Shown here piece after piece: positions 10,701-63,749 of a DNA stretch of 64,000 nucleotides. This DNA comes from Apostichopus japonicus (Eukaryota; Echinodermata; Holothuroidea; Aspidochirotida; Stichopodidae), in contig NC_092561.1 in the NCBI RefSeq assembly GCF_037975245.1, positions 19,279,508 through 19,343,507 on the forward strand, in the 5' to 3' direction. Under the pieces are notes generated by a model, which saw only the letters and a list, made by a program, of their open reading frames with translations, was not told where the DNA came from and ran no database searches. Every line of letters starts with the position of its first letter. Positions within the stretch are counted from its first letter, which is position 1. The translations under genes and the position numbers were made by a program.

Positions 10701-11322
10701 GCTATGTACAACAAACATTTCAACACTAAATTATTTCAACCCTGTTTCCCACACTGTATGTAAATTTATACTCACCTTTGCAGGAAGCAAGGCTAACCTT
10801 TCTTGTAACCAAAGCCAGGAGAAGATATAAATAAAGGCAGTGTTACTAGAGAACAGAGCAGTGACATCAGCAGCAGCTATGAGTCCCAAGGCCCAAACGT
10901 ACATGTAGTTGGTGATGAACCAACATATGGTGAAAGGAATGACGAAAGCGCAAAAGGTCTTAACGTTTAGGCCCGACCTGCCAAATACTTGAGCAGAATT
11001 CCTGGGAAGATCAATAAAATGTATTAATATTAATTAAACAAAAGTTAATATCAATAGTTTACTGTTACCTGAAAAATACTCACTATACCAAAGTGATAAA
11101 GTATTTACATAAACACCTTTTTCTTTCCCTAAAAATTTTACAAAATATCATATTTACTGTTACCGACTTATTACCCAATGATAATAATCATAATATGGAA
11201 ATCAAATCACAATATTTTATAATCTGAGATACACAAACACCTTTCTTTTTCCCAAAACTTTCTGCAAAATATCTTCTTTACTGTTACCTGACATACAGTA
11301 TGCCCAATCATAATAATCATAA

Positions 11323-11359
<37 letters not shown>

Positions 11360-21761: not shown

Positions 21762-28503
<6,742 letters not shown>

Positions 28504-43033: not shown

Positions 43034-43139
43034 ATGACAACGACCAGGGTTCAATCCAACATGGTGTTAAAGTGGATGGTGCTAATGGTGTTGATGGTGC
43101 ATGGTGTGATTGGGGCACCATCCACTCAAGTTGATGAAG
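43034..43139 (+). CDS. Mosaic gene exon 1: signal peptide (residues 1-35)
   Basis: It reads MTTTRVQSNMVLKWMVLMVL, MVHGVIGAPSTQVDE: a basic n-region, hydrophobic core and a likely cleavage after GVIGA. Donor GTATTA, phase 1. Confidence 0.75.
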
Positions 43140-46100
43140 GTATTAAAATATGATAAATTATTTTTAAAAGAGATAATGTACAGACACGTGTATAGGACAG
43201 ACACACACATATAACAGAGTTACTACTATAGTTCTGTATACATACAGTACAGTACTTGTCAATATTTGGTTTATCTAGGTAAAAGTGAGATCGTGGTGGC
43301 CAATTGGCTAAGGCGTCGGACTTGTGATCCAAGGATTGCTGGTTCAATTCCTGCCTAGTTCATTACGTTGTGTCCTTGGGCAAGATGCTTTATCTCACTT
43401 GCCTCTCTCCACTCAGGGTTATAAATGGGTACCTGTGAGGTAACTTGTCATTGGGTGCAGTATATATGCTGCCGACTGGAGGGATTGTCTCTGGGACAGG
43501 TTATCATTGACCAGGGGTAATATAACGTCTGTAAAGCGCTTTGAGACCTATCGCTGGTATAAAGCGCTATATAAATAGCAAATATTATTATTATAAATGT
43601 GGTTGAATGACTTCAAACGTAATGTACATATGTGGTTAATTTAATGGTTAATGTAGGCCAATAGACATGATGTGGTATAGGATGTTTGTAGATATATTTG
43701 ACAATGACCTCTGACATGGATAGATTTGAGGTAATTGAGGTTAATTGCATTGGTAGGGGAAAATGAAAATAGAGCCAGTTTATCTGTTGAGTTGAAAATG
43801 TTGTTTGGCAGATGTATGTTGAGTTATTTATAAATCATTACATAGATCTTAGTACTAGAGGCAGAGAATGGATCACCATGCCAGGCAAGGTTGATGGGTA
43901 CAGGAAGGAGAAGATTTAGATATGTATTTTAGATCCTCCTGCAAGCAGGAACTCGCGAAGAAGCCATCATTGGCTTATCAAAGCCGCAAGCTGACCGAAG
44001 TCAGTCTCTTAGATTTATATTTAACGTCCATGATTATGATTTGTCAATCATCAACAACTCTGTGTAACTGGACGACATAATGTATCCAACCATCATCTTT
44101 GGTTGATATTCATTCATTTATTTGTTTTATCGCCAATTGTGTACAAAGGGAAAGGAAGTCTCCTAAAAAGTCTTTATGACTAAGATCATTGTAATATGAG
44201 ATGTATGTAATATAAGAGATGATATATGAGATGATATGTAATATAAGATATGACTAAGATCATTGTAAAGAACAGCTATGAAAAAGATGTTGTTCCGTTT
44301 GGGAGATATCCTAAAAATTAAAACAAAAATCCTTAAATTTAAAAGTCACGTCTGGGATCTGTGTAACTACCTGTAGGAGGTTCAATATTTTACAATTCAG
44401 CATAAATTTGCAAAAACCCTTCTCCAGTTATTAACAGAAAATACATATTGTTTATAAAAGAAAAAAATATATCAAGTTGAATCACATGTGGCTCAATGAT
44501 GTCATGCTGTATTTAGACTTGATCAAGTCCTTGGCCGTTGTGTGCGAAGAAACATCGAAATGGAATAAGATGTTTCATTCAATGGCTATGAATTGGGAAA
44601 TTGTGCATGACAGTTAAAAATATCTTTATCAACTACTACTAGATCAGTGGTGCTAAATGAGGCTTGTGTCTCCTTGAAAGGTTGTAACCAAGGCGACCAA
44701 ACCACTGAGTCAGAGGGTTCAAGGTATCCTGAGAGTTCAACTGACTATGAAACAGTTAACTTATTGGTATACATGTTTCCCTGTACTGTATATATATCTT
44801 TAATACCATTTATTTGATAGGGAAGCTCACCTAGCCACCATTATTGATCTCCATGACAACCTCCTCCCCATTCAGCTGGGAAGGATTAATCACCCCAAAA
44901 GATGGCAGGTTAAATGACCAAACAAATTTGCTTTGAATCTTTTGTAGTAGGTCTAGCCCTGCCCATCCCTTATAACAACAATATTAATAAGTTGTTCCAC
45001 ATGTGAGGGCAGTCAGTGTTGATTGATGTCGGCTTTAAGGTGACAGAGGAAGCCTCGCTCAGAACCGTACTGTGGAGAGGATAAATAGGGATTAATTTTT
45101 AGGACACGTCGTTCCTGACTTCAAGCATGATGTCAGCTACTTCCTGTTAAATACATGCATGGAAGTATAGTTCCACGGTTCAATATAAAGTGTACAAGAA
45201 AGGCAATATTTGAGAACACACCTTTCGAGTTGGTTTATATGCTAAATTTCAATTTCAATTTTGAATTTGATAACAGAACTATGCGATACTTGTTTTTCTT
45301 TAGTGTTTGTGGTAATGTGTTTTAACTTTGCATATTGTCGATTGAAATTAAGAAATGATAGGTCCGGAAGTATTGAGTAAGAGAAACTGGGGGGGTAGGG
45401 TAGGAGGGGTTACCATAGCATAGGGAGGATGGGTACTGTAAGTCACAAAGGACTACCTAAAGGGCAAAGGGTCTGAGGAAAGGTACCAGATCAAGGTCAT
45501 AGGAGAAGGAGAAGCAAGGTTGTAAAGACAAGGGAGGGGGAGGGGAGGGGGAAGGGGGAGGGGAAGCGGAAGGGGAAGCGGAAGGGGAGGGGAAGGGGAA
45601 GGGGAGGGGGAAATAATTGGGAAAATTAGGGTCATGAATGATGTATGTAAAAAGTATTGGTCAGTTGCAGCTGAGCCGAAACTGTACTTTTGAAATTGTA
45701 AAGCTTACAAGTGGCAGTTTTAGGAGGTCAAAAATTGCTTGCTTTCCAAATTCAACAAATATATCTTTGGGCTTGATCTTTTTATCTTGTACAGGTTTTA
45801 TTGTTTAATTATGGGTTTTTATTTTCAGTTCATGACCTCATCAGCCGATTTAAGCAGACAGTCAGTTATCAGGGCGTCTTGAGGGAGACAGACCGGGAGA
45901 CGAATGAAACGATATGGCGGGTGCGACCGAAGATGCCGCCGTTAAGCAAAACTATATTATCTCTTGGCAGACTGCGATCACAGACCAGCGATGGATTCTC
46001 GTTGTTCGTCGTCGGAAGACAAGTTCCGACGAGTTCGGGGACGCTGTTGACGTTCTCCTCCGGTCAGACCGTCCTTCTCAGCATGACGTCTCTATCCCAG

Positions 46101-49100
46101 TCGAGACAGCTGAAGGTCAGATATATGGATACTGAGGGCGCCGTGCAGATAGCAATATTTCGTACCCCGTTTGTGAACAATGAGCTGGTCAAAGTACTGT
46201 TGGTGATGGAACCGACCCGAATGTCATTATTCACCGGATGCGACGATGTTCAGGAAGTAACGTTAGAAGAAGAGGCAAACTTTGACCTCCCAGAGAACAC
46301 GATTTTACACGTTTTACAAACGGCAAAAGCCAAAAATAAATTCAACGTAAGTATTTAAACGTCATTCAATTTGATACAGTGATGATGATAAGATTTATAG
46401 TAAATGTTTGAAACAGGGTCATCCATGTCATGTGACATCATGACATCTGAGTTTAATCTGATAATATATTTAAAGGGCTGTGGATGATACTACAGGTACA
46501 TGCAAAAAAGTTATATCTTCATCAACATATATTATAACAGTGAAAAAGGGATCTTCAAACTTATAGTATTGCTCTTATTTTTTAGTGTTGCCAAAAGTGT
46601 TCAATCAGTTGAAGTAACTTGTAAGTTGGAAATCATGAATAATGAGGGATTATTTGTTTTTGTTTTTTTTGTGGCGTATGTGATAAACCCGTAAAAAGAT
46701 TATTTGTAAAATTGGTAATCATAAAAGAAATGGAATGGTGTTTATCAAATTGTGCAGTATTTTAAACTATTAACGGTAATCACAAAGGAATGGAGATTGT
46801 GTTTACATTTTTATCGTTATGATATACAACAAGGAAAAGGGAATCTACAAAGCTATATTGCTGTTATTATAATTTTTTTCTTCTCATATTTTAATTGGCA
46901 ACCAGTTTAAATGAAAGTTTGGCCGGAATTCATTTTTGTAAAGAAGGTATTTTATTCTTCATTTTATAATTTATACTTTCTTGTCTCTTTTGCTTATTGT
47001 TTGGTAGGGTTGGATTCACACATTAGAACTTCATACCTCTGTTCTTCAAGGACCTCCATGGGACTGTGCACCAGCAGGTAAGAGGCATAGCTATACCTTG
47101 GAACAACAACTCTTTTGAGTATGGCCTGATTTTCTTTGTACCTTCACCAGTGTCCCACTCTCCACAAGATCATAACACCCTCCATGTCCGTCTGTACTTA
47201 AACCTCAAAACTCTTATGATGCTGACCGTTTGGGAAATAGCTCACCCACTGAAAAATTCTTAAAAAGTTCCTGATGATGTATACACACACCAGAGGCATC
47301 ACTATATGTTACATTGGATGATACATAATGTTTCTCCATGTTCCTCAACTGCCTCCTAGGGATTGTTCCCAGGATATGTTCCTGAAATAGCTTTATTTAG
47401 GTTTTTATGTTTCCAATAAAGTGAATGTGCCCAGATACCCAATAGTGCTTTTTAATGTGTACTTATGATACCATATGTGCATGTCGCAGACATCTGTAGA
47501 CCAAGATGATTTTATTCGTGTTTGCAAAGTTTAAGAATGTTGCCGTTTTTGGTTCAAGTTACACCCAGATGTTTAAATACCTGGACCTGGCTGTGAGTCT
47601 GCCCCTGTATCCCCACCGGCGCTTCCCCCTGGACCCTCTCAAGGGCCCCACGATGGGCCCATGAACCCCACCCGATGAAGGCTTTGGGCCAAAGCCCTCC
47701 CCGCACAATCCTTCAGTTTTTATCCATGTTCAGTCATTTAATGCCCCTCCCACTTTTCAATCGGGATCGACCCCCCACCCCCCTGCCCCGCCCCCCGCTG
47801 ATATAGTGCCCTCGTTCTCGTTGTACAACCCAGATTTGCAAATAAGAGCTGTTTGGGAATAACTTTTGCTTTTCTATAAATCACTAATAGATCTGGACCA
47901 TCCCGTCGCGGTACTAGAAATCTCATCGTAGATACGCGAAGTCCATAAGCACCCGATTCCACCGAAGTTTATCAAATCTTTTCTGCCGAAAAAAATCAAA
48001 TCGACATGGATTTGTTTACATTGTTTTTTCCCCTTCATTTTTCAGTAGAAGAGCAAGCTGTTAATGCTGAGGGCGGAGATGTACAAAATGACGAGCCTGT
48101 CTCAAGGAATTTTCAACATTCCAGGGGTAAGTCCGATAATTTGGCTTCTCTGTTTAAGCTCTGTGGGTAGCATATACTTGTTTCATTATTAATTGCAATT
48201 GGTAGGGACAAATGTGGAAACATTGCTGAGGTCGGAAGGAGTAGAAGGCAGATAGATGGCAGTCTCTCTGTATTTAATGATTAGATATGTACAAATTTTA
48301 CATAATATGTTCTGTATTTATGCTAAACTTACAAATGGAAAGTGTATGTTGGATCCACAAGGCTGGTAAGAATCAAGGACCGATGCCTTTTAGTGACTGT
48401 GCCCTGTGATGTTAGTCTATAAACTGTTTCCACCTGCTATAAGTGGACACATTGATGAGATCTGAAGGAGTTAAAGGGAGAGGAATGGTTGTCTTTGTTT
48501 CAATGAATAGTTATGCACAGCTTTACATAATATGTTCAAAAATTATGCTAAAATCAGAAACAGAAAGAGTAGGTTTTTTTCCAGTTCTTCTAAACCGTGG
48601 GGACAGGTCTTCCTAAGTTTAGTGACAGTGCCCTGTGATGTCGGTCTAACCGATTCCTCCTTATAAAAGTGGGGTGTATTTAGATGTAAACTGGAATGAG
48701 GTTGGGGGGTGGAGATGGGGGGGAGAGGGAGGGGTATTGTGGAGAGCCACTGCATTAGATTGTCATGTCTCATTTGTATAACTTAATTTCCAGATTAAGG
48801 TCATTTACATTGTTTATATTAATTAGTGAGGTACTTAAACTGAATTAAATGTTACATACTGGTTGTAGCCAGTGCATATACTGCTGATAGGCTGAGGGCA
48901 TAAAACTAAAACAGTATTGATATTCTGTGGCATTGGGTAACTCTTGCAATTTATCTCATTTTCATAATTATTATGGTAGCATCGTCCTCTGGTGGCAGCG
49001 GTGGGAGTGGTGGTGGCAGCAGTGGGAGTTCATCCAGGAGCAGCACGGTCTTCAGTTCATCCCACAGGGTGTCCGGAGGATCAACTCGCGTCTCTTCGTC

Positions 49101-52100
49101 TAGCGCATCTCAAACCTCTGGATCCGTGTGCGAGACAGAGACCTACCTCTTAGAGAATTCTGTGCTAGAGCTAACGAGAATGTTAGATGCTGCCAAAGAA
49201 GAGGTTTGTAATGAGCTAAGATAAATAAGAGAGAGGGATGAAGATTAATAGGAGGTTGGAGGAGGAGGGGGAGGACTTTGTAGGAACTTACATGTCTTTT
49301 TAGGCATTGGTTAGATGCTGCCAGAGAATAGGGTTGGTTAGAGTTAAGATAAATAAGAATGTGTAAAAGTAAGTTGGCCTGGCGTTTCGGTCCTAGCAGG
49401 ATCTTCTTCAAAGGCTAAATGACAAGTAACAGTAACAGAAGCTACAAAAACACGCACAGAATACAGACAGGTTAATGAGCATGGTGAACACAAAGAGATA
49501 GATGTAAGGGGATTAGTAGACAAGGGGATGGAGAGAAGAAAGAAAGAAACCAACAGGGGAAGAGGAGAGGTAGGAGATAAACAGTGGAGGGACAAAGAGA
49601 GGATTAAGGGAAGGGGGTAGGGAATAAACCGGAGAAGGAAAAAGACAGAAAGGTGTGGGGAAAAAAGGGTGGAAGAGAGCTATGAAAAGAGGATAAATAA
49701 GAAAGCCAGGGTGTTTGTAAGATCTATCTCTCCGTCAGAGATATTTAATAGAAATCCATACATCTTTCCTGGCTGTGTTTGAGATGTTTGTTGATTCTAG
49801 CTGTTCTCTCTCTCTCTGAATTCTCATCCTGATTAGCTTTTCTCTCTGTTAGAGATATTATCTAGTTCTTTTAATCATTTTCCTTTCTCTGTGATCTTAT
49901 AATTTTTAATTAAGTATCTCTCACTCTCAGATTCTCTCAGAGATCTTATCTAGACCAGCCTATCTCTCTGTCAGAGATATTATCTAGTTAATCATTTTCC
50001 TTTCTCTGTGATCTTATAATTTTTAATTAAGTATCTCTCACTCTCAGATTCTCTCAGAGATTCTTATCTAGACCACCCTTTCTCTCTGTCAGAGATATTA
50101 TCAAGCAAAGCATTTTCCTTTCTCTGTGATCTTATAATTTTTATGTAAGTCCCTCTCTCACTCAGAGATTCTCATCTAGACATCCTTTCTCTCTATCAAT
50201 GCTTTCATGTAGTGTCATCCTTCTCTCTCCGTAGAACGCCGGTTTGCAGACCCAGCTCGGCCTCCTGGAAACCTGCGAATGTAAGGTGCAGGCCTGTATC
50301 TACAATGGTAAAGTCTACGAGAACAACCAGCAATGGTATGCAGACCCCTGCACTGTCTGTCAATGCCAGGTAATTAAAACATAATTAAAACATATAATTA
50401 TCATACATATTCTCAGTTTCTCAATACTTACGGACATAATTTTGTATACGAGGCCAAGAGACAACAATAATAAGAAATGTAGATTCCAGTTGTTAAGATA
50501 CTCACAGAAATATTAAGAACTATCTTTTAAGAACTTTATTAAGAAAGTTCTCAGTTTTGGTTGACCTGATCTGTTGGGAATGAAATATCTCTCATGATTT
50601 CAGAGTTTCAGTTATTTGGAGTTGCTTTCCTTTTGTACATTTCCTAAAAGGAAAAAGCAGCTAAAAACCTTACCTTAAAAGTAGTCCACGTAATATATCC
50701 TAAAAATTCTCCTCACAGTTGATAAATTTGTCGCTGTTTTCTTTTCGTTTTTAGGAGGGATCTACTTTGTGTTCCATGTTGAACGTTGCAGAGTGCAACG
50801 AACCGTGTGCCTTGTCCCCCTGTTTGAATGGCGGTACCTGCTTGGGTAACCCCGGTTACCAGAACTTCACCTGTCTGTGCCCACCGTCTTGCAGCGGCAG
50901 CCGATGCCAGCACATGATCAACGTCTGCGCGATCGGGTCCGAGTACGGCGAATGCAGCGACCGGCTCCTGCGATATTATTACGATCACTTCCTCCAGAGA
51001 TGCGTGGAGTTTGTTTACTCAGGTATAGTATTTACCAGGTTTGCAAGTGTAAGGGAGGCCGATCACGGTAAAGATAGAGTTCGGAAGGATACAAAAATAT
51101 ACTATGTACAACACTAGGAACCGTGCGTAACATATATTTAATTAAAGTTCCTCCTTGTAACACCTCGTGGCCAACCAAACAAGCCTTCTCCACCAGCGAG
51201 CAAGGGCTCGCCGACAGCTAACATGCATTGGTGAACATAAAAGATTAACTATTGTTACATATATAAAGGGCATCATTCCTATATCGTCTTAGCATTACGG
51301 ATATGCAAATGAGGGATAAAGGTTAAGGGTTTAGAGTTAACTTTACAATTGAATACAGTTGTTTGTTATTTCATTAAACATATAGTGGGCCATCAGTCTT
51401 TTTTGTGAGATGTTACACAAGTTTTAGATGTTCCGTTTTTAAAAAACTGCACATGAACAACAGAATACTTTTAAGTGAAATTGATATCAACAAATTGAAT
51501 AGGATTTGAATCAGTGACCTCAGAATAACAAGTAATCTGCTCTACTAACTTAGTTATCCAGTCCTTAGTGGGTTTAGATCTCTCTATATAGCTCCTTTCT
51601 TTCTTAGGGGTGATACCGTGAAGCCGCAGTCCCATGCGTATGGTGTAACCATCTATCACACACCAAAGTCATGCCATGCAAACCAGAAAGCAGCGGGGAA
51701 AAAATTTCTAAAGAACTTCTGCTTTTATCTTTTCATCGAAGTAACATTTCCTGCCCTTTTCAGATTTAATATTTTCTTTCAGTGAAATTTATATAAACAC
51801 ATTGAATAGGATTTGAATCAGTCACCTCAGAATAACAAGTACTGTGCTGTACCAACTTAGCTATGCAGTCCACAGTGGGTTGAAATCTGTGTATAACCAT
51901 ATACCCTACTGGGGATAACAGTTAAAAGCCACTGCACCATGTGTTTGGTGTAACCACCAAGTACACACCAAATTCATCCCTTACAAACCAATAAGCTGTG
52001 GGGAGAAAAATTCCCAATAAAATCAGCATTTTATGTATTTGCTCTTTTCAGATCTATACAAAAACTGAAGTTTCTATAATTAATATTGAGAATTTTACTT

Positions 52101-55100: not shown

Positions 55101-58100
55101 TAAGGTGGGGTAAGTAATTTGTTTTCATAATAGCTTCATGATGCTATGAAGCTATGATGAGATGGGGGAAGTAATATGTTTTCATTATTGCTTCATGGTG
55201 CTATGAAGCTTTGATGAGGTGGGGGAAGTAATATGTTTTCATCATAGCTTCATGATGCTATGAAGCTATAAGGTGGGGGAAGTCATATGGTTGCATCATA
55301 GCTTCATGATGCTATTTAGCTATGATGAGGTGGGAGAAGTAATATCTTTTTGTCATAGCTTCATGATGCTATGAAGCTATGATGAGGTGGGGGGAAGTAA
55401 TACGTTTTCATCATAGCTTCATGAAGCTATGATGAGGTGGGAGAAGTAATATAGTTTCATCATAGCTTCATGATGCTATGAAGCTATGATGAGGTGGGGG
55501 AATAATATGTATTCCTTGTGGTATTTTTTTAACTTTTACAGGAGATTGATTGTTTGGTGACCATACCCTACTTTGATTTCACTCTTGATACATTTCTCCA
55601 TAGATTTAGACATTGAGAGATTAATCATCATAGCTTCATGATGCTATGAACCTATAATGAGGTAGGGGGAATTAATATGTATTTATTGTGGTATTTTTTC
55701 TTTCTTACAGGAGATTGATTGTCTGGTTACCATACCTTACTTTGATTTCACTCTGGATACCTACGACCTCAGCCGGTCTGTCGTCTGGCAACCCAACTAC
55801 TTCGGCGGTAACGGCGACGTGGATGCGGACGGTTGCGTCCCGGATCACCCCTTCAGGAACGACACGGCTTGGAAACCGTGTCTGGTTCGGTCCTTCCAAC
55901 TGAATCATAGGCTGCCGTCAAAGTTAGACATCGCCCTCGCCGTGGCGAGCGAGAGCTATTCCTCATTCTCCGAATGCTTACAGATGATTCTAGGTCAGGT
56001 TTATAGCTACATCGGCGGCCACATAGCAACATCTGCTGCCCCCTACGACCCTCTCTTCCTACCCATCCAAGCGTACGCTGACATGCTCTTCTGGCAGTGG
56101 CAGAAGATATCGGGCAACCAGAACAGCTTTCCTTCGTTCCTTCTCGACGTGCCGATGGTACCTTTCAATGTGGAACCGCGGGACGTGTTGCAGCTGGAAC
56201 ACAGCGTTTGCGTGACGTATCTGCTGCCCTCGTTGGGGGCGCCGTGCAACTACACAGCTGAAGAGTTTAATAACTTCGGATTTGACGTTGAAGGCTACGA
56301 CAGGAATGGATTTAATCGCCAAGGATTCGATAGGTGAGATCTGTCGTTATTCTTCGCGGCCGGTTCCGATAATTATGTCTCAAAGATGCAAAGGAACTTT
56401 AACCTTAAAATTTTTACAATTACCTCAGCGATTTAATTTTTGTCCTGTTTATCTTTCTTGGAAAATTTTAGTTCTCATTTTGTCTTTTAAAATTGTTAAA
56501 ATGTTTGGAAACAAGTTTTCACAATGTTTTCTGAAATGTCTTGAACTTTTTTTTTTTAAGTTTGATGACAATACCACAATTTGCAATATTGTTTTCTTTG
56601 AAACCTAAATCTAGTGTTTTGAATATGTTTTATCAGTTTCAAGTTCAAATTACTCCATCTTTCTTTGAAGGTTTGGTTACAATGCTATGGGATTCAACAG
56701 ATACGGCCAGCGGGATACGCGTGACATTTATATCTATAACACCTACTCTTTCCAAGGCTATAACAGATCCGGATATGACCGGAGGGGATACAACAGATAT
56801 GGATACAGTGTAGACGGTATGGAATGGTTTAAACATATAACTCATGAGGCCATATCTCTTTTACCTTTTGAAGGATAGCTGTAAAGGGATATGGGTAAAT
56901 AGAGTATAGTAGATATGGCTGTAGTGTGAACTAATGCTTTATAGCTCTCAACTCATAAGTTATGGCTGTAGTGTTCATGCTATATGGCTCTCATGACTAA
57001 ATGACTTTCCTGAAACAACAAAAAACTGTCCTATATCATTTCTGTGAGGCTGCCAAGTTTATCCTAAAAGAATTTATCCTAATAACGTGTGACACCTCTC
57101 CACTCTCTTTAACTATTTTCTTGGCATTACAGACAAACTTTAAAGAAAGGCCTCGTTGTCTGCCAATGAAAAAAAAAAAGACCAGTTCAGAAATGTACAT
57201 TTTATATAAAAATAATATCAAACTAAAAAAGTAAAAGTTTTAAAATTTTGAAGTGGCTGTTGGAGAAAGATTTTAACTGTTTTCTGGTGAAACCAGAATT
57301 AAGTAGATAACATTCAAAATAAATGACACTTAGAACAAGACGTAATAAAGAAGATGAAGTTAAGTTATTCGCCTGTGGAATATTATTAATATGTTACAAA
57401 TTAAACTTACAAATATGAAAACTTACAAAATGAACAAGTCAACCTTAAAAATAAAAATAATTTTTCCCAACCAGGTTACAACCGAGATGGCTACGACGTT
57501 AACGGATATGACCGCCTCGGTCTCAACCGGTACGGCTTAAACAGAGACGGTTTCGATGCCAGAGGTTACAGCATCCGGGGATATAACCAGGATAACCGGT
57601 ACGACCAGTCGGATTATTACGATTCGTCCGGTTTCGACTCCCAGTGTCTGGATCGGCAGCAGTTAGACATATCGAGATTCGATCGTTTCGGGTTTAACCT
57701 CCAGGGAAGTCGAGTCGATTACTGCACTTACGGTTTCAACGGTCCTCACGAGCTCCGGATTTCACTTCAGGTAGATGCGGTCCTCTTCGGTCAGTCCAAG
57801 GACTTCTTGATGGCGTACTTCAGGACCTGCTCGGCCCCGTCCAGAGAACCGATCCGTTGGTACGAACAGACTTGGACGGACAGAACCAAGCCGTTCTTTA
57901 GACTCCAAGTCGCGTCCACGCAGTTTCCGCACTCTGTGTATTCTCAAAGGTAAAAAAAAAATTCATTCTGTTTTTGAGGATTTTTTGGCTGTTCTTGTCA
58001 TTGATGGTAGTGACGATGAAGTTTATAGAAATGATTTTTAAATAGGGTTTTCAGAGAATCTTGTCTCAAAGAGAGATTCTGGTTGCCGAAGGTGAATGCT

Positions 58101-61100
58101 TATTCAAACTTCGTCGGTTAATTGTTTTATTAGTCATGCAAAAAATAACAGAAGGTTACATGCAATTAATTGTGTTATGAGTCAAGATTAAGATGAGATA
58201 GGGCTTCCAGCTAACAGTGGCATTTTGAGAAGAAGATTACACATGAGTGACAATTTATGTGACTTTCTAGCATATTTGGTTGTTGGTCTGATGACCTTTG
58301 ACATTGAGGCAACAAACGATTAATAAACAGTTTTCATAAGTGTGCCAGGAAATGTTGCCAAAAAAAAAAAAAAAATAATAATAATGATAAAAAAAAAATA
58401 ATAATAATAATAAAAAAAAATGAAATAAAATGAATGACATGACATGACTTGACATGACATGACATGAAATACAATGCAATACAATACAATAGAATAGAAT
58501 ACAATACAATGAAATACAATAAAATAAAATACAATACAATACATACAATACAATAAAATACATTACAATAAAATAGAATACAATGCAATACAATACAATA
58601 CAATATAATTCAATACAATAAATTACAATACTATACATTTCAATGCAATGCAATACAATACAATATCCTGCCATCTTTGATAGGTTTTGCCTTGACATCG
58701 AGCCACTGCTGACCCGCTGCCCGTGCCAGGGGGAACCAGCCGTTTGTACCAGGAATCCCTGCAAGAGGACCTGCGGGAGCTATCCGGATGCTGTCTGCTT
58801 TGTGAACTTCTGTGACGGTTGTTACGCCCAGTGGTATCTGAACGGAGAGCAAGTCAACTGTGATGCTAGTGTTAGAGGTGTGTGGTCTTTTCTACCTGCA
58901 GAATGGAAAAATGGGGTGGGGAAGCTGGGGGGGGGGTTGGATGGGATGTTGGTTGACGTACAAGCCTGGTAATATCTTAGATGAAAACGATAAAAAAATT
59001 TGTAGCATATAATATAGTAACACAAAGAATCCGGAATGGAGAAACAGGCAACTGTAATGCTAGTATTAGAGATCTGAGGTCATTTCTTCCTACTGGGGTG
59101 TAGAAATTGAATTTGGGGGCAGGAACAAAGTGGCAGGGGTGGGAAACAGGCTCACATTCTTGCACCAATAGGGTATGCAGGCTGTTAGACGTGGGCAATT
59201 CATTGAAGTCCATGCACTGTCTGCTCAGATTGAGATACTCAAATGTTTGGTTTCTTGGAAACAAGTAACAAATCTAGAACAGTGATGATGTTGTAAGAGT
59301 GTTGTAGTCAAGTGGTTAAGGCAGTGGACTTGTGATCCAAGGTTTGCAGGTTCGAGTCCTGGCCAGATCGTTACTTTATGTCCTTAGGCAAGGCACTTTA
59401 TACCTCTTTGCACCCAGGGTATAACTGGGGACTTGTAATTTAACTTGTAAATATAGTTGCGAGCGCCGGTTTGAGACTGCACCCTATGGGAAGTCCCCTA
59501 GGGGACACGTAGATGTGGTGCACCGTGGTGCCCCAGGAGGGATTGTTTGAATTGTGCACAGTTTGGGGTGTGGGTGAGTGTGACAAGTTACCAATGGCCA
59601 GGGGTTAAGTTGTAAAGTCGTGTGAGGGGTCCTTGGCCTCAAACAAGACTGTAAACCTTCAACTTAGACTTCGAATAAGCAAACAAGAAATCTGGTGTTG
59701 GAATATGAAGGCAAGAAAATATTATATTTATTATTCATATTGTAAATGAATAACCTTTGTGTTTGTTGCTCTCCCAGAGTGTTCCGATGGATTCAACCGT
59801 TATCGAGAAGACGCTGTCTGGAGACCAGACCCTTGTACTACTTGTCGGTGTTCGGTGAGTCCGCAAGTTTTCCCTTCATCAAACTTTGTTAAGCTATTTA
59901 CAAGAACATACCGATCTTAGGTGTCTCTTAAATCTTTTAAGCAAAGACTGTACACACACAAGGTAATTTTGTTATGTAGCTGTTTGCATATGTATATCCA
60001 AATAGTTGCCCTCTTAAACTTTCATTTTGATATGTTACGAATGATCGTTGTAGTTTTAATACATCCAGGCAGTTGCTATTCCAAATTTTATTTGGATATG
60101 TTATGAATGATTGGGTAGGTTTTATACCTCCAGGCAGTTGCCTCTTAAAATTTTTATTTTGATATGTTCAGAACGATCGGGGAAGGTTTTAGACATCCAG
60201 GCAGTTGCTATTCAAAATTTTATGTTTGATATATTACAAATGATCGGGTAGGTCGTTTACATCCAGTTGCCCTCTTAAACTTATATTTTGATATGTTCCG
60301 AACGATCGGGAAGGTTTTATACATCCAGGCAGTTTCCTCTTCAACTAATATTTTGAGATGTTCCGAATGATCGGGGTAGGTTTTATACATCCAGGCAGTT
60401 GCTTCTTAAAACTTTCCATTTTGATAAGTTACAAATGATCGAATGACTTTTTTACCTGCAAGTTCTCTGCCTCTTAAATCTTGCTGGATTGACCTTAATT
60501 TGAACTTTTCCATCTCTCCGTCGTCCAGGATGGCAGTGTTGACTGTGAGGTGGTTCGTTGTCCGAGATCGGCTTGCTCTCATCCTGCTCTGGCAGCTGGT
60601 GACTGCTGCGCTACTTGCGATGGTCAGTCACTAGATATCTTACCTCTGTGAAAATAGGCTTGACGTAAAAGGTTGCATATCCCCAGTGTTTATATGTGTG
60701 GGCATCATTATGCTGGTTGTAATGGTGGAGATAATTTAGGACTGGATTTCTGCTAGAAATATTGTAAATTGTTTGAAGATGGTAACATCATTCACGTCTT
60801 TTGATAATTTACAATAATTTAAAAAAAAATTTAATGTAATGAAAAAAAAAACAATCCCATTTGGAAGACACTCAGTGTATCGTGAATTTGTCTAAGGTGA
60901 GAAAGGATATCGATTCTATGCAAATGTTGGTCACCATCTTAGCAACGTTCTTTACAGACGATGGTTGGTTTCAATAAGAACAGTGAGGGGATTACACCCC
61001 CCCCCCCACGCCAAATAAACTCTCTGATTAGTTTTTTTCTCTCTCTTCCTTAGGATGTCAGTATGGTACGTATACATATGCCAACGGTCAGACCTTCAAT

Positions 61101-63749
61101 GCGGCTAACGAGCCTTGTTCCGAATGTACCTGCATTGTAAGTATTCCATATGCCTGGTCTACTCGGTTAGATGGATTCATATTTTTAAGCTGAAAATATT
61201 ACTCCAAAAATAGCAATCAGAAATAAATATTACACATATAAAATTGATCAATTTAAGAAAAAGTCCTAGAAATCTTGTAGTCAACTCCTTCAAATCCTTT
61301 CTTTTTATAGACTTAATTTTTTTTTCAAATGCATTTCTAGTGTTGGCACCAGCCTTAGGCAATCCGGGGGGGGGGACTAGCAAGCAAGGAATTTTTATAT
61401 GAGGGAAGATAAATATAACCTTGGTACAGGGGTGGGGTCTAAGGAGAAGGGGGTTCCCCCATTTTCTGCAAGTAAAATGACTTAGGCGCAATATGGTGCT
61501 ATTATTTGACAGTTTGTTTGCATTTAATGCATCTCATTGGAAGCTGCTTCCGATACAAACGATTAGCCTAGCTCCATATATTTTGGATAGGTACCAGATT
61601 TGGTTGTGGGGGGGGGGGACTGAGGGGACAAGGGAAAAGTCTTGGAGGGGAAAGGTCCCTCATGTTTGTAATTTTCTCATTCATTTTGCGTTTGTTCATT
61701 TACTTCATATAAACTATGCAAATAAAATTATCTACCAGTATGGTAGTGAGTTTTATTGAGCATTTTGTCATAAAAACTGTAATTAGAAGTATTCTCTATT
61801 ATTAAAGCTAAAGAATATATGACTTTCTGGGTTGACTGTTCATTTTGATGTTACAGAATCATAACCTTAGTTAAAACAATTTAGTCACCACTGTCCAAGA
61901 AATTATACTGAGAAAAAGAGTACAGATTTTTGTTGTTGTTGAGCTGCGACTGTTTTCCGATGCGGTAATCAATTTGGTCTCAACTCAAGAATTAAACTGA
62001 GATATCCTGTTCCAATTAGGTCTTGATCTCCATTTTAATATATCTTTCCTATCATGGTACCAACTGTGTCAAAATCGTCCTCTATTTTAACATTTTCTTT
62101 GACTTGAAAACAAAGGGATGGCATGTCACACCCCTTTCCTATGAAATGTGGAGACCTATATAGTAGTCAGGCATGAGCTTTTTCCGCGAATTCGCGGAAT
62201 ATCCGTGATCTCTTTTCTACCTCGGGGACAAAAAACTATTATCCTAACACACTGTAGCATATGCAAACTGGAGCCTATACCGCAATTTTTGCAAAGTTCC
62301 ATGATTTTTTTTGTACCTCAGGCTCATCCATGCATAGTTAACAATTCTCTTGTAAATGAACTAAAAACGAAAGACAAACTTCCAACCACATCTGTCTCAT
62401 GTTTCTCTTTTTGTTCTCTCGTGGACAGAATGGAAACGTGGAGTGTAGGACAGTGACCTGCCCTCCAGTTACCTGCGACTATCCCTGGACCTACGGAGAT
62501 AGATGCTGTCCTAGTTGTGATGGTATTCCGCCTTCTAAAGATTTTATCCCTTAACTCAAGTTTTAGTTTAGTTTATAGCTGGCTTGAGTCTGATAAAGGA
62601 TTAGGGAGGTACATCTCTCATTTGGAGTTGTGTATTAAACTGTTCATGTAAACTGCTGACAAACAGAGTGGTGTTTCTGGTCTGGTCATGTGTATTCTGT
62701 TTGTTTGTTCGATTTGGCCCGAGATCTTCATCAGAACTGGAACAGACAACCCTCTAAAGCTATTCAGATACCTGAAATGAAAAGTTTTTGTCTTTTTGGA
62801 AAAGTACTGATGTTTGCATGATAAGCTGTAGCAACATATAGGTTTGGAGAGCACTCAAACGATAACTTAAATGCAATGCAATACAATGCAATGCATTACA
62901 TTACAATACTTGCATTGTAATGCAATGCAGTGCAATGCAATGCAATACAATGGAATGCAATACAATGCACTGCATTACATTACAATACTTGCATTGTAAT
63001 GCAATGCAGTGCAATGCAATGGAATGCAATACAATGTAATGCATGCAATGCATTACATTACAATACTTGCTTTGTAATGTAATGCAGTGCAATGCAATAC
63101 AATACAATGCAGTGCATTGCATTACAATACTTGCATTGTAATGCAATGCAGTGCAATGCAATGCAATGCATTACATTACAATACTTGCATTGTAATGCAA
63201 TGCAGTGCAATGTAATACAATGCAATACAGTATGTCTGAAATGGAAAGAACAAAAAACATTGACCCCCTCAGTAAGTGAGCTCTCTGATGTATGAAATAT
63301 TGAATTTCTTTTTTCTTGGGGGGGGGGGAGAATGGGGAGGGGGGTGGGGCTGGTAGTACATTGGATATTCTGCAATTCATTTACAACCAACTCCTGCAAA
63401 TATTTTGGTTTTTTACATTTATATGTTAAGCTTATTAATTAATCGAAACGCCTATGTAGTCACTAAAACCTGGTTTCCCATTTTTCAAACAGGATGTGTG
63501 TACGACGGTCGCGTTCTACGGAACGGACAGGCCTTCAGCTACGACACCTGCACCATGTGTCGCTGTGAGGATGGAGACGTGAGCTGCGACCAGATAGAAT
63601 GCGGCCGCCTCTCCTGCGACAATCAGATCAATCCCGAGGGATCATGCTGCCCTCGCTGTCGTGACGGCTGCGAATACGAGGGAATGTCTTTCAACAATGG
63701 GATGTTCTTCACGCCGATGTCCAATCCTTGTCTTCAGTGTTCTTGTCGG
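43034..63749 (+). CDS. Secreted mosaic protein: TSPN/LamG-coiled coil-VWC-EGF-Kunitz-VWC-like-tyrosinase-pentapeptide array-Cys module-VWC repeats (3' partial, 19 coding exons, 1346 aa so far)
   Basis: Nineteen exons join in a single frame (4038 nt). The domain order by residue is: signal peptide about 1-28; thrombospondin-N/laminin-G-like 36-231; Ser/Gly linker 259-310; coiled coil about 312-346; VWC about 347-392; EGF 392-429; Kunitz 436-486; a Cys-rich region ending in a VWC-like half (487-593); tyrosinase domain 593 to about 840; Gly-Tyr/Phe-Asp/Asn-Arg pentapeptides 855-961; a beta-rich segment to about 1079; a Cys module 1081-1144; VWC domains 1145-1201, 1202-1260, 1261-1319 and the start of another at the edge. 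The N-terminal half (TSPN, coiled coil, VWC) has the order found in NELL proteins, and the C-terminal VWC run resembles kielin/chordin-like proteins. It should act outside the cell, as matrix or ligand-binding protein; the function is not known. The tyrosinase part keeps CuA histidines but lacks CuB histidines, so oxidase activity is unlikely. The gene continues beyond the window. Confidence 0.88.
43285..43600 (+). mobile_element. tRNA-derived SINE, family S2 (copy 1), in mosaic intron 1
   Basis: tRNA-like head with GGCTAAGGCGTCGGACTTGT and GGTTCAATTCC, body GTGTCCTTGGGCAAGATGCT, tail GTAAAGCGCTTTGAGACC ... AAGCGCTATATAAATAGC and an ATT repeat. This tail type is widespread in animal SINEs. 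Confidence 0.88.
43918..44085 (-). mobile_element. SINE family S1 (copy 6, truncated), in mosaic intron 1
   Basis: The plus strand reads TTTTAGATCCTCCTGCAAGC, CAAGCTGACCGAAGTCAGTC and ACTGGACGACATA. The head is missing. Confidence 0.82.
45525..45612 (+). repeat. Purine-rich GGGGAAGG low-complexity tract
   Basis: Runs of GGGGAGGGGAAGCGGAAGGG type, in mosaic intron 1. Confidence 0.95.
45829..46346 (+). CDS. Mosaic gene exon 2: TSPN/laminin-G-like domain (residues 36-208)
   Basis: The exon reads VHDLISRFKQTVSYQGVL and on to MEPTRMSLFTGCDDVQEV and LPENTILHVLQTAKAKNKFN. Alternating beta strands and the xSLFxxCxxVxEV motif fit the thrombospondin N-terminal fold. Donor GTAAGT, phase 0. Confidence 0.85.
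46347..47007 (+). other. Mosaic intron 2
   Basis: AT-rich, with two diverged copies of a roughly 220-bp stretch (near 46540 and 46830: AAAAGGGATCTTCAAA / AAAAGGGAATCTACAAA, then GCTATATTGCTGTTATTAT-like sequence). No other feature seen. Confidence 0.4.
47008..47077 (+). CDS. Mosaic gene exon 3: end of the TSPN-like domain (residues 209-231)
   Basis: It reads GWIHTLELHTSVLQGPPWDC. The N-K-F-N/G-W-I junction and the final Cys are the expected last strand and disulfide partner of a TSPN domain. Phase 0 in, phase 1 out. Confidence 0.8.
47078..48045 (+). other. Mosaic intron 3
   Basis: I see no repeat or exon. It has a C-rich stretch near 47605-47790. Confidence 0.4.
48046..48126 (+). CDS. Mosaic gene exon 4: acidic linker (residues 232-258)
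   Basis: It reads VEEQAVNAEGGDVQNDEP and on to NFQHSR. It is small, phase 1 at both ends, with a ttttcag acceptor and a GTAAGT donor. No domain. Confidence 0.65.
48980..49203 (+). CDS. Mosaic gene exon 5: Ser/Gly-rich linker and coiled-coil start (residues 259-333)
   Basis: The Ser/Gly linker (SSSGGSGGSGGGSSGSSS) is followed by CETETYLLENSVLELTRML and DAAKEE, with heptad hydrophobics. The donor is the weaker GTTTGT. Exon 6 continues the helix in frame. Confidence 0.75.
49309..49356 (+). repeat. Diverged copy of the exon-5 3' end in the following intron
   Basis: The 3' end of exon 5 with its donor flank (49184-49232) recurs here: TTAGATGCTGCCARAGAA and AAGATAAATAAGA are shared in order. A foldback element follows directly. 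Confidence 0.7.
49354..49440. mobile_element. Single arm of foldback family A, in mosaic intron 5
   Basis: GTGTAAAAGTAAGTTGGCCT and GCGTTTCGGTCCTAGCAGGA with TTCAAAGGCTAAATGACAAG; the second arm is missing. Confidence 0.7.
49720..50225 (+). repeat. Tandem units of about 125 bp, pyrimidine-rich, in mosaic intron 5
   Basis: Three to four units share CTCTCTGTCAGAGATATTAT, CATTTTCCTTTCTCTGTGAT and TTATAATTTTTAATTAAGTA. The array runs up to the exon-6 acceptor. Confidence 0.85.
50235..50369 (+). CDS. Mosaic gene exon 6: coiled-coil end and first VWC half (residues 334-378)
   Basis: It reads NAGLQTQLGLLETCECKVQA, CIYNGKVYENNQQW and DPCTVCQCQ. The placement of a CxC after the helix followed by VWC is as in NELL proteins. 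Phase 0 at both ends. Confidence 0.85.
50755..51022 (+). CDS. Mosaic gene exon 7: VWC end, EGF domain, first half of Kunitz (residues 379-467)
   Basis: The EGF-like module has CNEPCALSPCLNGGTC, then CLCPPSCSGSRC. The Kunitz part begins at Cys436 and reads CAIGSEYGECSDRLLRYYYD and RCVEFVYSG. The exon is GC-richer than its introns. Donor GTATAG, phase 1, splitting Kunitz just before its fourth Cys. Confidence 0.9.
51474..52015 (-). repeat. Two direct copies of a tRNA-like SINE-type unit in mosaic intron 7
   Basis: Units at about 51474-51712 and 51778-52015 share TTGAATAGGATTTGAATCAG, CCTCAGAATAACAAGTA and CATGCGTATGGTGTAACCA-like sequence. Reversed, the start reads like a tRNA (TAAGTTAGTAGAGCAGA; GATTCAAATCC), so this is probably a minus-strand SINE family present twice. 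Confidence 0.7.
52579..52730 (+). CDS. Mosaic gene exon 8: second half of Kunitz and Cys-rich region (residues 468-518)
   Basis: It reads CGGNGNNFLSYQACQDQC and then CCYRTYQRITEGDDF. Across exons 7-8 the Cys spacing is C-x8-C-x15-C-x7-C-x12-C-x3-C, exactly the Kunitz pattern. The next residues, to about 518, match no family I know. Confidence 0.9.
52879..53099 (+). CDS. Mosaic gene exon 9: Cys-rich region with VWC-like motif (residues 519-591)
   Basis: It includes CEEVECGASETCTVDG, GDVLQKGCQTCICVRGGRV and ECR; the CxxCxC ... VxC pattern is VWC-like. Phase 0 in, phase 2 out; the split codon gives Arg592. Confidence 0.85.
53757..53922. mobile_element. Foldback element, family A (copy 3), in mosaic intron 9
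   Basis: Leader CAGAACTGTTAGCAATTAGC and both arms (GATCCTAGCAGG / CTGCTAGGATCGAAACGTCA) are present; the loop is shorter than in copies 1 and 2. Confidence 0.75.
54075..54275 (+). mobile_element. SINE family S1 (copy 7), in mosaic intron 9
   Basis: Box-B region GGTCCCCGGTTCGAGTCACT, the body, and a tail ending GGATCTAAAAGACATAC. The exon-10 acceptor is about 90 bases downstream. Confidence 0.85.
54370..54589 (+). CDS. Mosaic gene exon 10: tyrosinase domain, CuA half (residues 592-665)
   Basis: It reads VRKEIRDMTREELDRFQEAV and NLYITHVMEAHSRPLFLLWH, then RIYLTEVEKKLQ. His639, His644 and His653 fit the CuA site with the usual 8 residues between the second and third His. Donor GTAAAA, phase 0. 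Confidence 0.92.
54955..55690 (+). repeat. Tandem array of about 60-bp units in intron 10
   Basis: About a dozen units share ATAGCTTCATGATGCTATGA, then AGCTATGATGAGGTGGGGGA and AGTAATATGTTTTCATC. Each unit holds a short inverted repeat (TAGCTTCAT / ATGAAGCTA) that could form a hairpin. The array surrounds a copy of the exon-11 start. Confidence 0.9.
55542..55592 (+). pseudogene. Ghost copy of the exon-11 5' end with its acceptor, inside intron 10
   Basis: After an acceptor-like cttttacag (to 55541), 17 codons read EIDCLVTIPYFDFTLDT, the same as the true exon 11 start at 55711. The five base differences are all synonymous. Downstream the frame reads FLHRFRH and then a TGA. No donor lies before the stop, so use of this copy would truncate the tyrosinase domain after CuA. 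Confidence 0.8.
55711..56333 (+). CDS. Mosaic gene exon 11: tyrosinase domain, degenerate CuB half, start of pentapeptide array (residues 666-872)
   Basis: It begins EIDCLVTIPYFDFTLD (the usual IPYWDW-type strand), and has SYIGGHIATSAAPYDPLFLP and IQAYADMLFWQWQK. The tyrosinase CuB region is clear by fold, but the expected His positions hold Leu759, Tyr763 and Ile784/Gln785. The end (GFDVEGYDRNGFNRQGFDR) starts the repeats. Phase 0 in, phase 2 out. Confidence 0.93.
56671..56816 (+). CDS. Mosaic gene exon 12: pentapeptide repeats (residues 873-921)
   Basis: It reads FGYNAMGFNRYG, a spacer with IYIYNTYSFQ, then GYNRSGYDRRGYNRYGYSVD. Phase 2 in, phase 1 out, continuing the repeats seamlessly into exon 13. 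Confidence 0.88.
57475..57949 (+). CDS. Mosaic gene exon 13: pentapeptide repeats and C-terminal beta-rich segment (residues 922-1079)
   Basis: It starts GYNRDGYDVNGYDRLGLNRY, GLNRDGFDARGYSIRGYNQD; later SGFDSQCLDRQQLDISRFDR and a non-repetitive part (ELRISLQVDAVLFGQSKDFL, MAYFRTCSAPSREPIRWYEQ) that may be the beta-sandwich that often follows a tyrosinase/hemocyanin core. Phase 1 in, phase 2 out. Confidence 0.88.
58366..58672. repeat. Low-complexity A-rich tract and (ACAAT)n microsatellite in intron 13
   Basis: Poly(A)/AAT sequence (58358-58425) then imperfect ACAAT/GACATGA pentamers and heptamers up to the exon-14 acceptor. The long minus-strand ORFs here are repeat artefacts. Confidence 0.9.
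58684..58877 (+). CDS. Mosaic gene exon 14: Cys-rich module (residues 1080-1144)
   Basis: It reads RCPCQGEPAVCTRNPCKRTC, GSYPDAVCFVNFCDGCYAQW and YLNGEQVNC. The pattern CxxYPxAxCxxxxCxxCxAxWYxxG is one I have seen in several secreted invertebrate proteins, but I have no family name. Phase 2 in, phase 1 out. Confidence 0.85.
59030..59100 (+). repeat. Diverged copy of the exon-14 3' end in the next intron
   Basis: GGAATGGAGAAACAGGCAAC, TGTAATGCTAGTATTAGAGA and TCATTTCTTCCTACTG parallel the end of exon 14 and its donor flank at 58840-58905 in the same order and spacing. Confidence 0.75.
59293..59660 (+). mobile_element. tRNA-derived SINE, family S2-like (copy 2), in mosaic intron 14
   Basis: Head AGTCAAGTGGTTAAGGCAGT, box B GCAGGTTCGAGTCCTGG, and the body GTCCTTAGGCAAGGCACTTT shared with copy 1. 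The tail is diverged. It is not a functional tRNA gene because the acceptor stem does not pair and the body continues. Confidence 0.8.
59778..59854 (+). CDS. Mosaic gene exon 15: VWC first half (residues 1145-1170)
   Basis: It reads ECSDGFNRYREDAVW and RPDPCTTCRCS. Phase 1 in, phase 0 out, donor GTGAGT. Confidence 0.88.
59985..60470 (+). repeat. About 60-bp tandem repeat in mosaic intron 15
   Basis: Eight diverged units share TTGATATGTTACGAATGATC, GGTTTTATACATCCAGGCAG and TTGCCTCTTAAA. The array ends about 60 bases before exon 16. Confidence 0.85.
60529..60622 (+). CDS. Mosaic gene exon 16: VWC second half (residues 1171-1201)
   Basis: It reads DGSVDCEVVRCPRSACSH and GDCCATCD, the CxxxxCPxxxC ... 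CCxxC end of a VWC. Phase 0 in, phase 1 out. Confidence 0.88.
61054..61136 (+). CDS. Mosaic gene exon 17: VWC first half (residues 1202-1229)
   Basis: It reads GCQYGTYTYANGQTF and NEPCSECTCI. Phase 1 in, phase 0 out, donor GTAAGT. Confidence 0.88.
62168..62333 (-). mobile_element. MITE family B (copy 3), in mosaic intron 17
   Basis: Reverse orientation: CAGGCATGAGCTTTTTCCGC, then CACACTGTAGCATATGCAAA and CTCAGGCTCATCCATGC. Confidence 0.85.
62429..62522 (+). CDS. Mosaic gene exon 18: VWC second half (residues 1230-1260)
   Basis: It reads NGNVECRTVTCPPVTCDY and GDRCCPSCD. It has the same length (94 bases) and phases as exon 16, as expected for a duplicated module. Confidence 0.88.
62868..63235. 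repeat. Palindrome-rich (CAATG)n array in mosaic intron 18
   Basis: Five units with the palindrome GCATTACATTACAATACTTG / CATTGTAATGCAATGC, embedded in AATGCAATAC pentamers. The frames on both strands are artefacts. Confidence 0.9.
63493..63749 (+). CDS. Mosaic gene exon 19: one whole VWC and the first half of another (residues 1261-1346)
   Basis: It reads GCVYDGRVLRNGQAFSYDTC, CRCEDGDVSCDQIECGRLSC, GSCCPRCRDG, then CEYEGMSFNNGMFF and CLQCSCR. The intron that splits the earlier VWC units is absent in the first VWC of this exon. Donor GTGAGT, phase 0; the gene goes on. Confidence 0.88.

Follow-up and report, generated by a model that had tools for sequence, protein, structure and literature searches.

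A front domain followed by heptads and a VWC domain is an arrangement common to the NELL proteins, thrombospondin-1/2 and kielin. Xenopus kielin begins with an N-terminal TSP-N module. The NELL proteins carry EGF repeats and VWC at the end, and they are not known to have a VWD domain or a long VWC array. In the kielin/chordin-like protein KCP, 18 CR motifs are described together with a vWF D domain at the C-terminus, and the protein is reported to bind BMP-7, activin A and TGF-b1 (PMC7073173).

The tyrosinase family has been reported in three papers to be missing from echinoderms. Esposito et al. reported that a tyrosinase-family sequence was absent from the echinoderm genomes then available, and noted evidence that echinoderms use phenoloxidases (PMC3334994). 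The sea urchin draft genome was described by Aguilera et al. as having no type-3 copper protein (PMC3658974), and a 2024 paper again stated that no tyrosinase-family member was known in echinoderms (PMC10951248). Here, we describe a locus of Apostichopus japonicus in which a tyrosinase-like domain is embedded in a large VWC-rich gene.

Gene Model in the Window and Beyond

The window, meaning the whole 64,000-nucleotide stretch of DNA analysed, corresponds to C1:19279508–19343507 of an assembly of 671.6 Mb in 35 contigs. The mitochondrial contig of this assembly, C35 (16,099 bases), starts with COX1. Five mitochondrial code tables were compared on this gene: tables 9 and 14 both give the familiar STNHKDIGTLY, with AAA read as Asn, and table 9 closes the frame after 517 residues, whereas table 14 reads through. 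Table 9 is used by echinoderms and flatworms. The gene order, as we read the frames, is COX1, ND4L, COX2, a short frame at the expected place of ATP8, ATP6, COX3, ND3, ND4, ND5, ND6 (on the opposite strand) and CYTB, which is the order of echinoderms. A sequence-only reading had joined nineteen exons of the window into one frame of 1346 codons with consistent phases and had proposed that they encode a secreted mosaic of TSPN/LamG, coiled-coil, VWC, EGF, Kunitz, tyrosinase, Tyr-rich, Cys-module and further VWC parts. The model was rebuilt from the raw sequence. Exons 1–19 (43034–63749, forward strand) were found to comprise 4038 nt, which gives the same number of codons, 1346, with no stops. 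The claimed order of domains within the window holds in the rebuilt model, and so does the secreted, extracellular setting. The exons and the parts of the protein encoded by them are listed in Table 1.

Table 1. Exons of the gene in the window and the protein parts assigned to them
Feature	Position	Strand	Basis
Exon 1: signal peptide	43034..43139	+	ATG and hydrophobic stretch by eye; absent from the free model
Exon 2: TSPN/LamG-like N-terminal domain, aa 36-208	45829..46346	+	open throughout, AG/GT; weak co-linear NELL2 match
Exon 3: end of the N-terminal domain	47008..47077	+	exon join
Exon 4: linker	48046..48126	+	donor set at GTAAGT to hold phase; absent from the free model
Exon 5: Ser/Gly linker and heptad (coiled-coil-like) stretch	48980..49203	+	exon join, sequence
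Exon 6: end of the heptads, first VWC	50235..50369	+	VWC 2e-8
Exon 7: end of VWC, EGF, first half of Kunitz	50755..51022	+	EGF 3.1e-4, Kunitz 8.4e-15; free-model donor differs
Exon 8: second half of Kunitz, Cys-rich link	52579..52730	+	Pfam
Exon 9: VWC-like Cys block	52879..53099	+	exon join; no Pfam match
Exon 10: tyrosinase-like domain, CuA half (R633, H644, H653 at ligand places)	54370..54589	+	Pfam, alignment
Exon 11: tyrosinase-like CuB half (L759, Y763, Q785 at ligand places), first Tyr-rich repeats	55711..56333	+	Pfam, alignment
Exon 12: Tyr-rich 5-residue repeats	56671..56816	+	repeat analysis
Exon 13: Tyr-rich repeats, then region without significant Pfam/PDB match	57475..57949	+	repeat analysis, searches
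Exon 14: Cys module, recurs elsewhere in the genome	58684..58877	+	exon join, tblastn
Exon 15: first half of VWC	59778..59854	+	Pfam
Exon 16: second half of VWC	60529..60622	+	Pfam
Exon 17: first half of VWC	61054..61136	+	Pfam
Exon 18: second half of VWC	62429..62522	+	Pfam
Exon 19: VWC; gene runs on past the window	63493..63749	+	Pfam

The consistency of the phases was examined by choosing the best-scoring acceptor and donor near each exon edge while ignoring phase, so that one third of the junctions would be expected to agree by chance. Agreement was obtained at 15 of the 18 window junctions (binomial 1.9e-5), which bears out the phases proposed earlier, and at 73 of the 78 junctions of the full 79-exon model (binomial 4e-29). 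The misses were junctions 1, 4, 7, 31 and 77. A free dynamic-programming model scored 1442 on the real strand, whereas three local shuffles scored 224–251 and the reverse complement 0.5. The window exons had served to train the codon scores of this model, which makes the control not independent and partly circular. The free model contained 83 exons and recovered 71 of the 79 curated ones, including 16 of the 19 in the window (exons 1, 4 and 7 were missed). Exon 1, which encodes the signal peptide, is the least certain exon.

The sequence-only reading had also called for a check beyond the window edge. Exon 19 was found to be followed by 60 further exons, so that the right edge of the feature is the edge of the window only. 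The full model comprises 79 exons encoding 3903 residues, its only stop being the terminal one. It ends at window-frame position 130363 (C1:19409870), approximately 66 kb past the window, and the window holds about the front third of the protein. AG/GT borders are present in 77 of the 79 exons; the exceptions are the first, which carries the start, and the last, which carries the stop. Since several edges downstream were placed manually, individual exons there may be wrong. Namely, new edges were given to the exons at 81622, 111793, 122760, 124049 and 125046, one exon was inserted at 85845, and the automatic-model exons starting at 89573, 93112, 111608 and 116856 were dropped, as they lacked VWC cysteines or were set in repeats. 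In the same downstream part, beyond the window, one VWC exon has its end duplicated within the intron after it (window-frame 92600–93300).

We considered whether two or three adjacent genes, one with the TSPN, EGF and Kunitz parts, one tyrosinase-like and one kielin-like, had been read as one. The single-gene model is built from genomic sequence alone, and it is at window junctions 1, 4 and 7 that the phase-blind test failed and exons 1, 4 and 7 that the free model missed. However, all of junctions 8–18 passed this test, including those between the VWC-like block and the tyrosinase-like domain (9–10) and between the Cys module and the VWC domains (14–15), and the joined frame has no internal stop. 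We therefore regard a split into separate genes as improbable.

Several other features were seen in and around the window. The pieces of a JAB/MPN protease gene lie at 25558–27698 on the reverse strand (JAB 1.4e-28 on the hand-joined pieces); we take this gene to be PSMD14/Rpn11-like. The pieces of a putative EamA/SLC35-type transporter lie at 9012–13126, also on the reverse strand, with an EamA match below the Pfam cut-off and another piece unmatched. Dispersed elements that look related by eye and have a tRNA-like head, perhaps SINEs, are present at 43290–43580 and 59290–59700. Downstream of the gene and outside the window, exons of a rhodopsin-family GPCR were found at window-frame 138676–139745 (7tm_1 1e-20). 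Elsewhere in the assembly, extra COX1-like pieces occur at C29:14745–31219 besides the mitochondrial contig C35, and are either nuclear copies or stray mitochondrial sequence.

Domain Architecture and Family

The joined window protein was searched against Pfam at E ≤ 1. The search gave VWC (4.2e-28, five stretches), Tyrosinase (1.1e-19) and Kunitz (8.4e-15). CFC was also matched, at a score under its cut-off, and EGF was not matched. When the protein was searched in cut pieces, one piece matched VWC (2e-8) and EGF (3.1e-4, 0.1 bit under the cut-off), and no Pfam match was obtained for the N-terminal piece, the exon 8–9 piece or the Tyr-rich piece. The TSPN/LamG-like domain showed a co-linear but non-significant match to NELL2 (E 0.83, third of eight matches), and a search of its own genome at E ≤ 10 returned only its own exons, that is, no paralogue of the front domain. 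The leucines of the heptads lie, by eye, between two cysteines and form a coiled-coil-like stretch.

The reactive site of the Kunitz domain reads Ser-Asp at P1-P1'. Thr-Ala, Arg-Val, Lys-Gly, Lys-Ala and Ala-Gly stand there in the five displayed relatives; thus, P1 varies and is non-basic in some of them, and none has Asp at P1'. Judging from these residues, the Kunitz module may not inhibit proteases.

The part of the protein beyond the insert consists mainly of VWC domains. Pfam recognised 18 + 20 VWC stretches in the tail, which together with the one near the front gives 39; some of the tail domains are degenerate (exon 38 of the model). The C-terminal end consists of VWD (3.6e-37), C8 (1.6e-22) and TIL (1.5e-7) followed by the stop, and the VWD domain retains the CGLC motif (residue 3692). 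VWD/C8 matches also lie densely clustered at C15:15.81–15.95M, where they may mark a mucin- or Sfp1-like array.

Placed by its domain architecture, the frame of this protein is of the kielin/chordin-like (KCP) type. The front end had been read as NELL-like, and this was not borne out: a VWC array followed by a VWD-C8-TIL end is the kielin/chordin-like plan, and membership in the NELL family was dropped once this end was found. It had also been stated that no named family has this order of domains, which may be true of the insert, whereas the frame follows the plan of KCP. For the N-terminal TSP-N domain of KCP, no Pfam match was obtained here, and the NELL2 match mentioned above is not significant. 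The features of thrombospondin-1/2, namely TSR repeats and C-terminal thrombospondin domains after VWC, are not among the Pfam matches listed. Judging by titles, no paper in the literature searched deals with a protein combining the kielin type with tyrosinase. Public proteomes may already contain proteins of this architecture, annotated as kielin/chordin-like.

The Tyrosinase-like Domain

The match to PF00264 reached 72.2 bits against a cut-off of 22.6 (residues 638–797, E 1.1e-19), indicating that the common central domain is present. The motifs WHR, PYFDF in place of PYWDW, GG and DPLF were recognised in it. Among the alignments shown in the PDB search, the best single stretch was the tyrosinase chain 7ciy_A with 79 bits, and the best hemocyanin unit had 33.5 bits. 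The hemocyanins lead the ranking by whole chain because their scores add over many units; a TYRP1 chain was far lower (27 bits).

To compare the metal sites, we used the HMMER alignment with 7ciy_A, from which the residue numbers of that chain were worked out. We take 7ciy to be a Streptomyces tyrosinase and its six aligned histidines to be the copper ligands. At CuA, H38, H54 and H63 face R633, H644 and H653, so two of three histidines are kept. At CuB, H190, H194 and H216 face L759, Y763 and Q785, and none is kept. His639 lies near the place of the first CuA ligand and not at it. Sixteen hemocyanin units were aligned as well. The CuB places are covered in full by 15 of them, and the remaining unit covers only the last place; by our reading, the displayed units have His wherever the present domain has Leu, Tyr or Ile-Gln.

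On the basis of these alignments, the tyrosinase-like domain is probably catalytically dead. The frame of exons 10–14 is intact, which means that the loss hits the metal site and not the gene. The earlier proposal of a tyrosinase fold thus stands as far as the sequence match goes and falls short of an active enzyme. An active tyrosinase was among the candidates that we dropped, since in the alignment every CuB ligand is replaced, as is one of those at CuA.

The combined reading, a NELL-like gene whose active tyrosinase cross-links the matrix, draws on the shared order of the front end with its weak co-linear NELL2 match, on the clear tyrosinase match and on an adjoining Tyr-rich tract that could serve as substrate. 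We consider it very unlikely, given the VWC array with its VWD-C8-TIL end, the CuB and CuA counts of none and two of three histidines, and the position of His639 off the first CuA place.

The first part of exon 11, including its acceptor, has an incomplete duplicate in the preceding intron (window 55518–55595). By eye, it has four differences over 50 aligned coding bases, all of them synonymous, which is odd for a dead copy.

The Tyr-Rich Tract and the Cys Module

The tyrosinase-like domain is followed by a tract of 155 residues with a 5-residue period, Gly-Tyr/Phe-Asp/Asn-Arg-x, in which 20 strict units were counted. The self-match of the tract was 0.35 at a shift of 5 versus 0.02–0.10 at shifts that are not multiples of 5 (shifts 2–14). 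When pairs of units were compared at the same residue (400 comparisons), codon positions 1, 2 and 3 agreed at 0.92, 1.00 and 0.39, respectively. This pattern indicates an old repeat held at the protein level rather than a young DNA repeat. The motif of the repeat, in six forms, was not found in the literature searched. The region after the repeat gave no Pfam match and five PDB matches, the best with E 0.85, which we took as chance.

The Cys module encoded by exon 14 recurs elsewhere in the genome, and one copy, at C3:4761076, adjoins a stretch that is Kazal-like by eye. A cluster of exons resembling this module was also noticed at C8:31.29–31.39M.

An assembly chimera, with foreign tyrosinase exons set into a kielin gene, might be suspected because PMC3334994, PMC3658974 and PMC10951248 report no such domain from echinoderms. 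We consider this highly improbable, as exons 10–14 lie within one 21.65 Mb contig with junctions that pass the phase-blind test, the intronic partial copy of exon 11 sits alongside, and the Tyr repeat bears, in its codon positions, the mark of old constraint at the protein level.

Tyrosinase Relatives in the Genome

The whole 671.6 Mb assembly was searched with PF00264 exon by exon, so that the counts are lower bounds and a tyrosinase with short exons could be missed; below E 1, the only matches were exons 10 and 11 of the present gene. A relaxed search gave three candidates, two of which were these exons, while the third (E 6.44) lay in a microsatellite-rich record. Fourteen control genomes gave no PF00264 match, and the sole positive control for the sensitivity of this search is the present gene itself. 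For the arthropod-type hemocyanin/phenoloxidase domain PF00372, three matches were obtained in the assembly, none over the cut-off (best E 0.5).

The 545-residue insert was also used as a tblastn query, which gave at least 34 matches (80 of the 131 candidates were scored). A second tyrosinase elsewhere was rejected among these scored candidates, since query residues 1–205 matched only the gene's own exons and the intronic fragment. None of the remaining matches starts before query residue 210; they fall in the Tyr-rich part or the Cys module, and one in the Tyr-rich group is a simple tandem repeat. No tyrosinase-family locus other than the present one was detected in this echinoderm genome.

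Discussion

We consider it likely that the exons described here belong to one gene for a secreted KCP-type extracellular scaffold of approximately 3900 residues, in which the enzyme-like insert is a non-catalytic module. The order of the modules is a front domain, heptads and VWC; the insert of EGF, Kunitz, tyrosinase-like domain, Tyr-rich tract and Cys module; the VWC array; and VWD-C8-TIL. Such a protein could form oligomers by way of its heptads, which are flanked by cysteines, and of its VWD end. By analogy, its VWC array would bind BMP/TGF-beta ligands and matrix partners. The insert could act as an interaction or docking module without catalysis, and the Tyr-rich repeat may be a cross-linking site for another oxidase. 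As a whole, the protein might form an extracellular or skeletal-matrix scaffold holding growth factors.

Proteins of this kind have been reported in starfish. In the starfish-adhesive paper, as far as its text is available, the multimerisation of von Willebrand factor is invoked for VWD-C8-TIL proteins, and the VWC repeats of the footprint protein Sfp6 are likened to kielin/chordin-like protein. Five gene models of the Patiria miniata skeletal proteome are annotated as kielin/chordin-like, all matching one urchin record (PMC5460417). One kielin/chordin-like protein was identified in the spines of the crown-of-thorns starfish, its expression being highest in the mouth and tentacles and low in the spines (PMC10448888). 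The word tyrosinase does not occur in the available text of any of these three papers. The starfish data fit an extracellular setting; the low expression of the crown-of-thorns protein in spines means that a skeletal role is weakly supported.

A dead copy within a multi-exon kielin-like gene could escape surveys of tyrosinases. Loss of the enzyme would then be distinct from loss of the fold, and a type of protein present in the skeletal and spine proteomes of starfish would include a secreted pseudo-tyrosinase. We put forward, as a tentative proposal that may well not hold, that echinoderms did not lose the tyrosinase family altogether and that at least one lineage keeps a single dead domain in a giant kielin-type matrix protein, where it would have a docking or binding role beside a Tyr-rich tract. 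If true, this would be a secreted pseudoenzyme linking a growth-factor scaffold to matrix hardening, perhaps beside tyrosines cross-linked by another oxidase.

The protein shares with NELL1/NELL2 the order of a putative TSPN-like domain, a coiled-coil-like stretch and VWC at the front, and differs from them in its VWD-C8-TIL end, its long VWC array and its single EGF match. Like KCP, as the latter is described in PMC7073173, it is secreted and has many VWC (CR) repeats and a C-terminal VWD domain; in contrast to the 18 CR motifs of KCP, it has 39 Pfam VWC stretches, and the EGF, Kunitz, tyrosinase-like, Tyr-rich and Cys modules are inserted near its front. The sequence of the common central domain is shared with the type-3 copper proteins, that is, tyrosinase and molluscan hemocyanin, whereas here all CuB ligands and one CuA ligand are lost and the domain is embedded in a VWC scaffold. 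The ascidian Tuphoxin (EGF, TSP1, tyrosinase) is likewise an extracellular deuterostome protein that joins tyrosinase with EGF and matrix modules, but its copper-binding histidines are reported to be present, and the available part of its description mentions no VWC array (PMC9395347).
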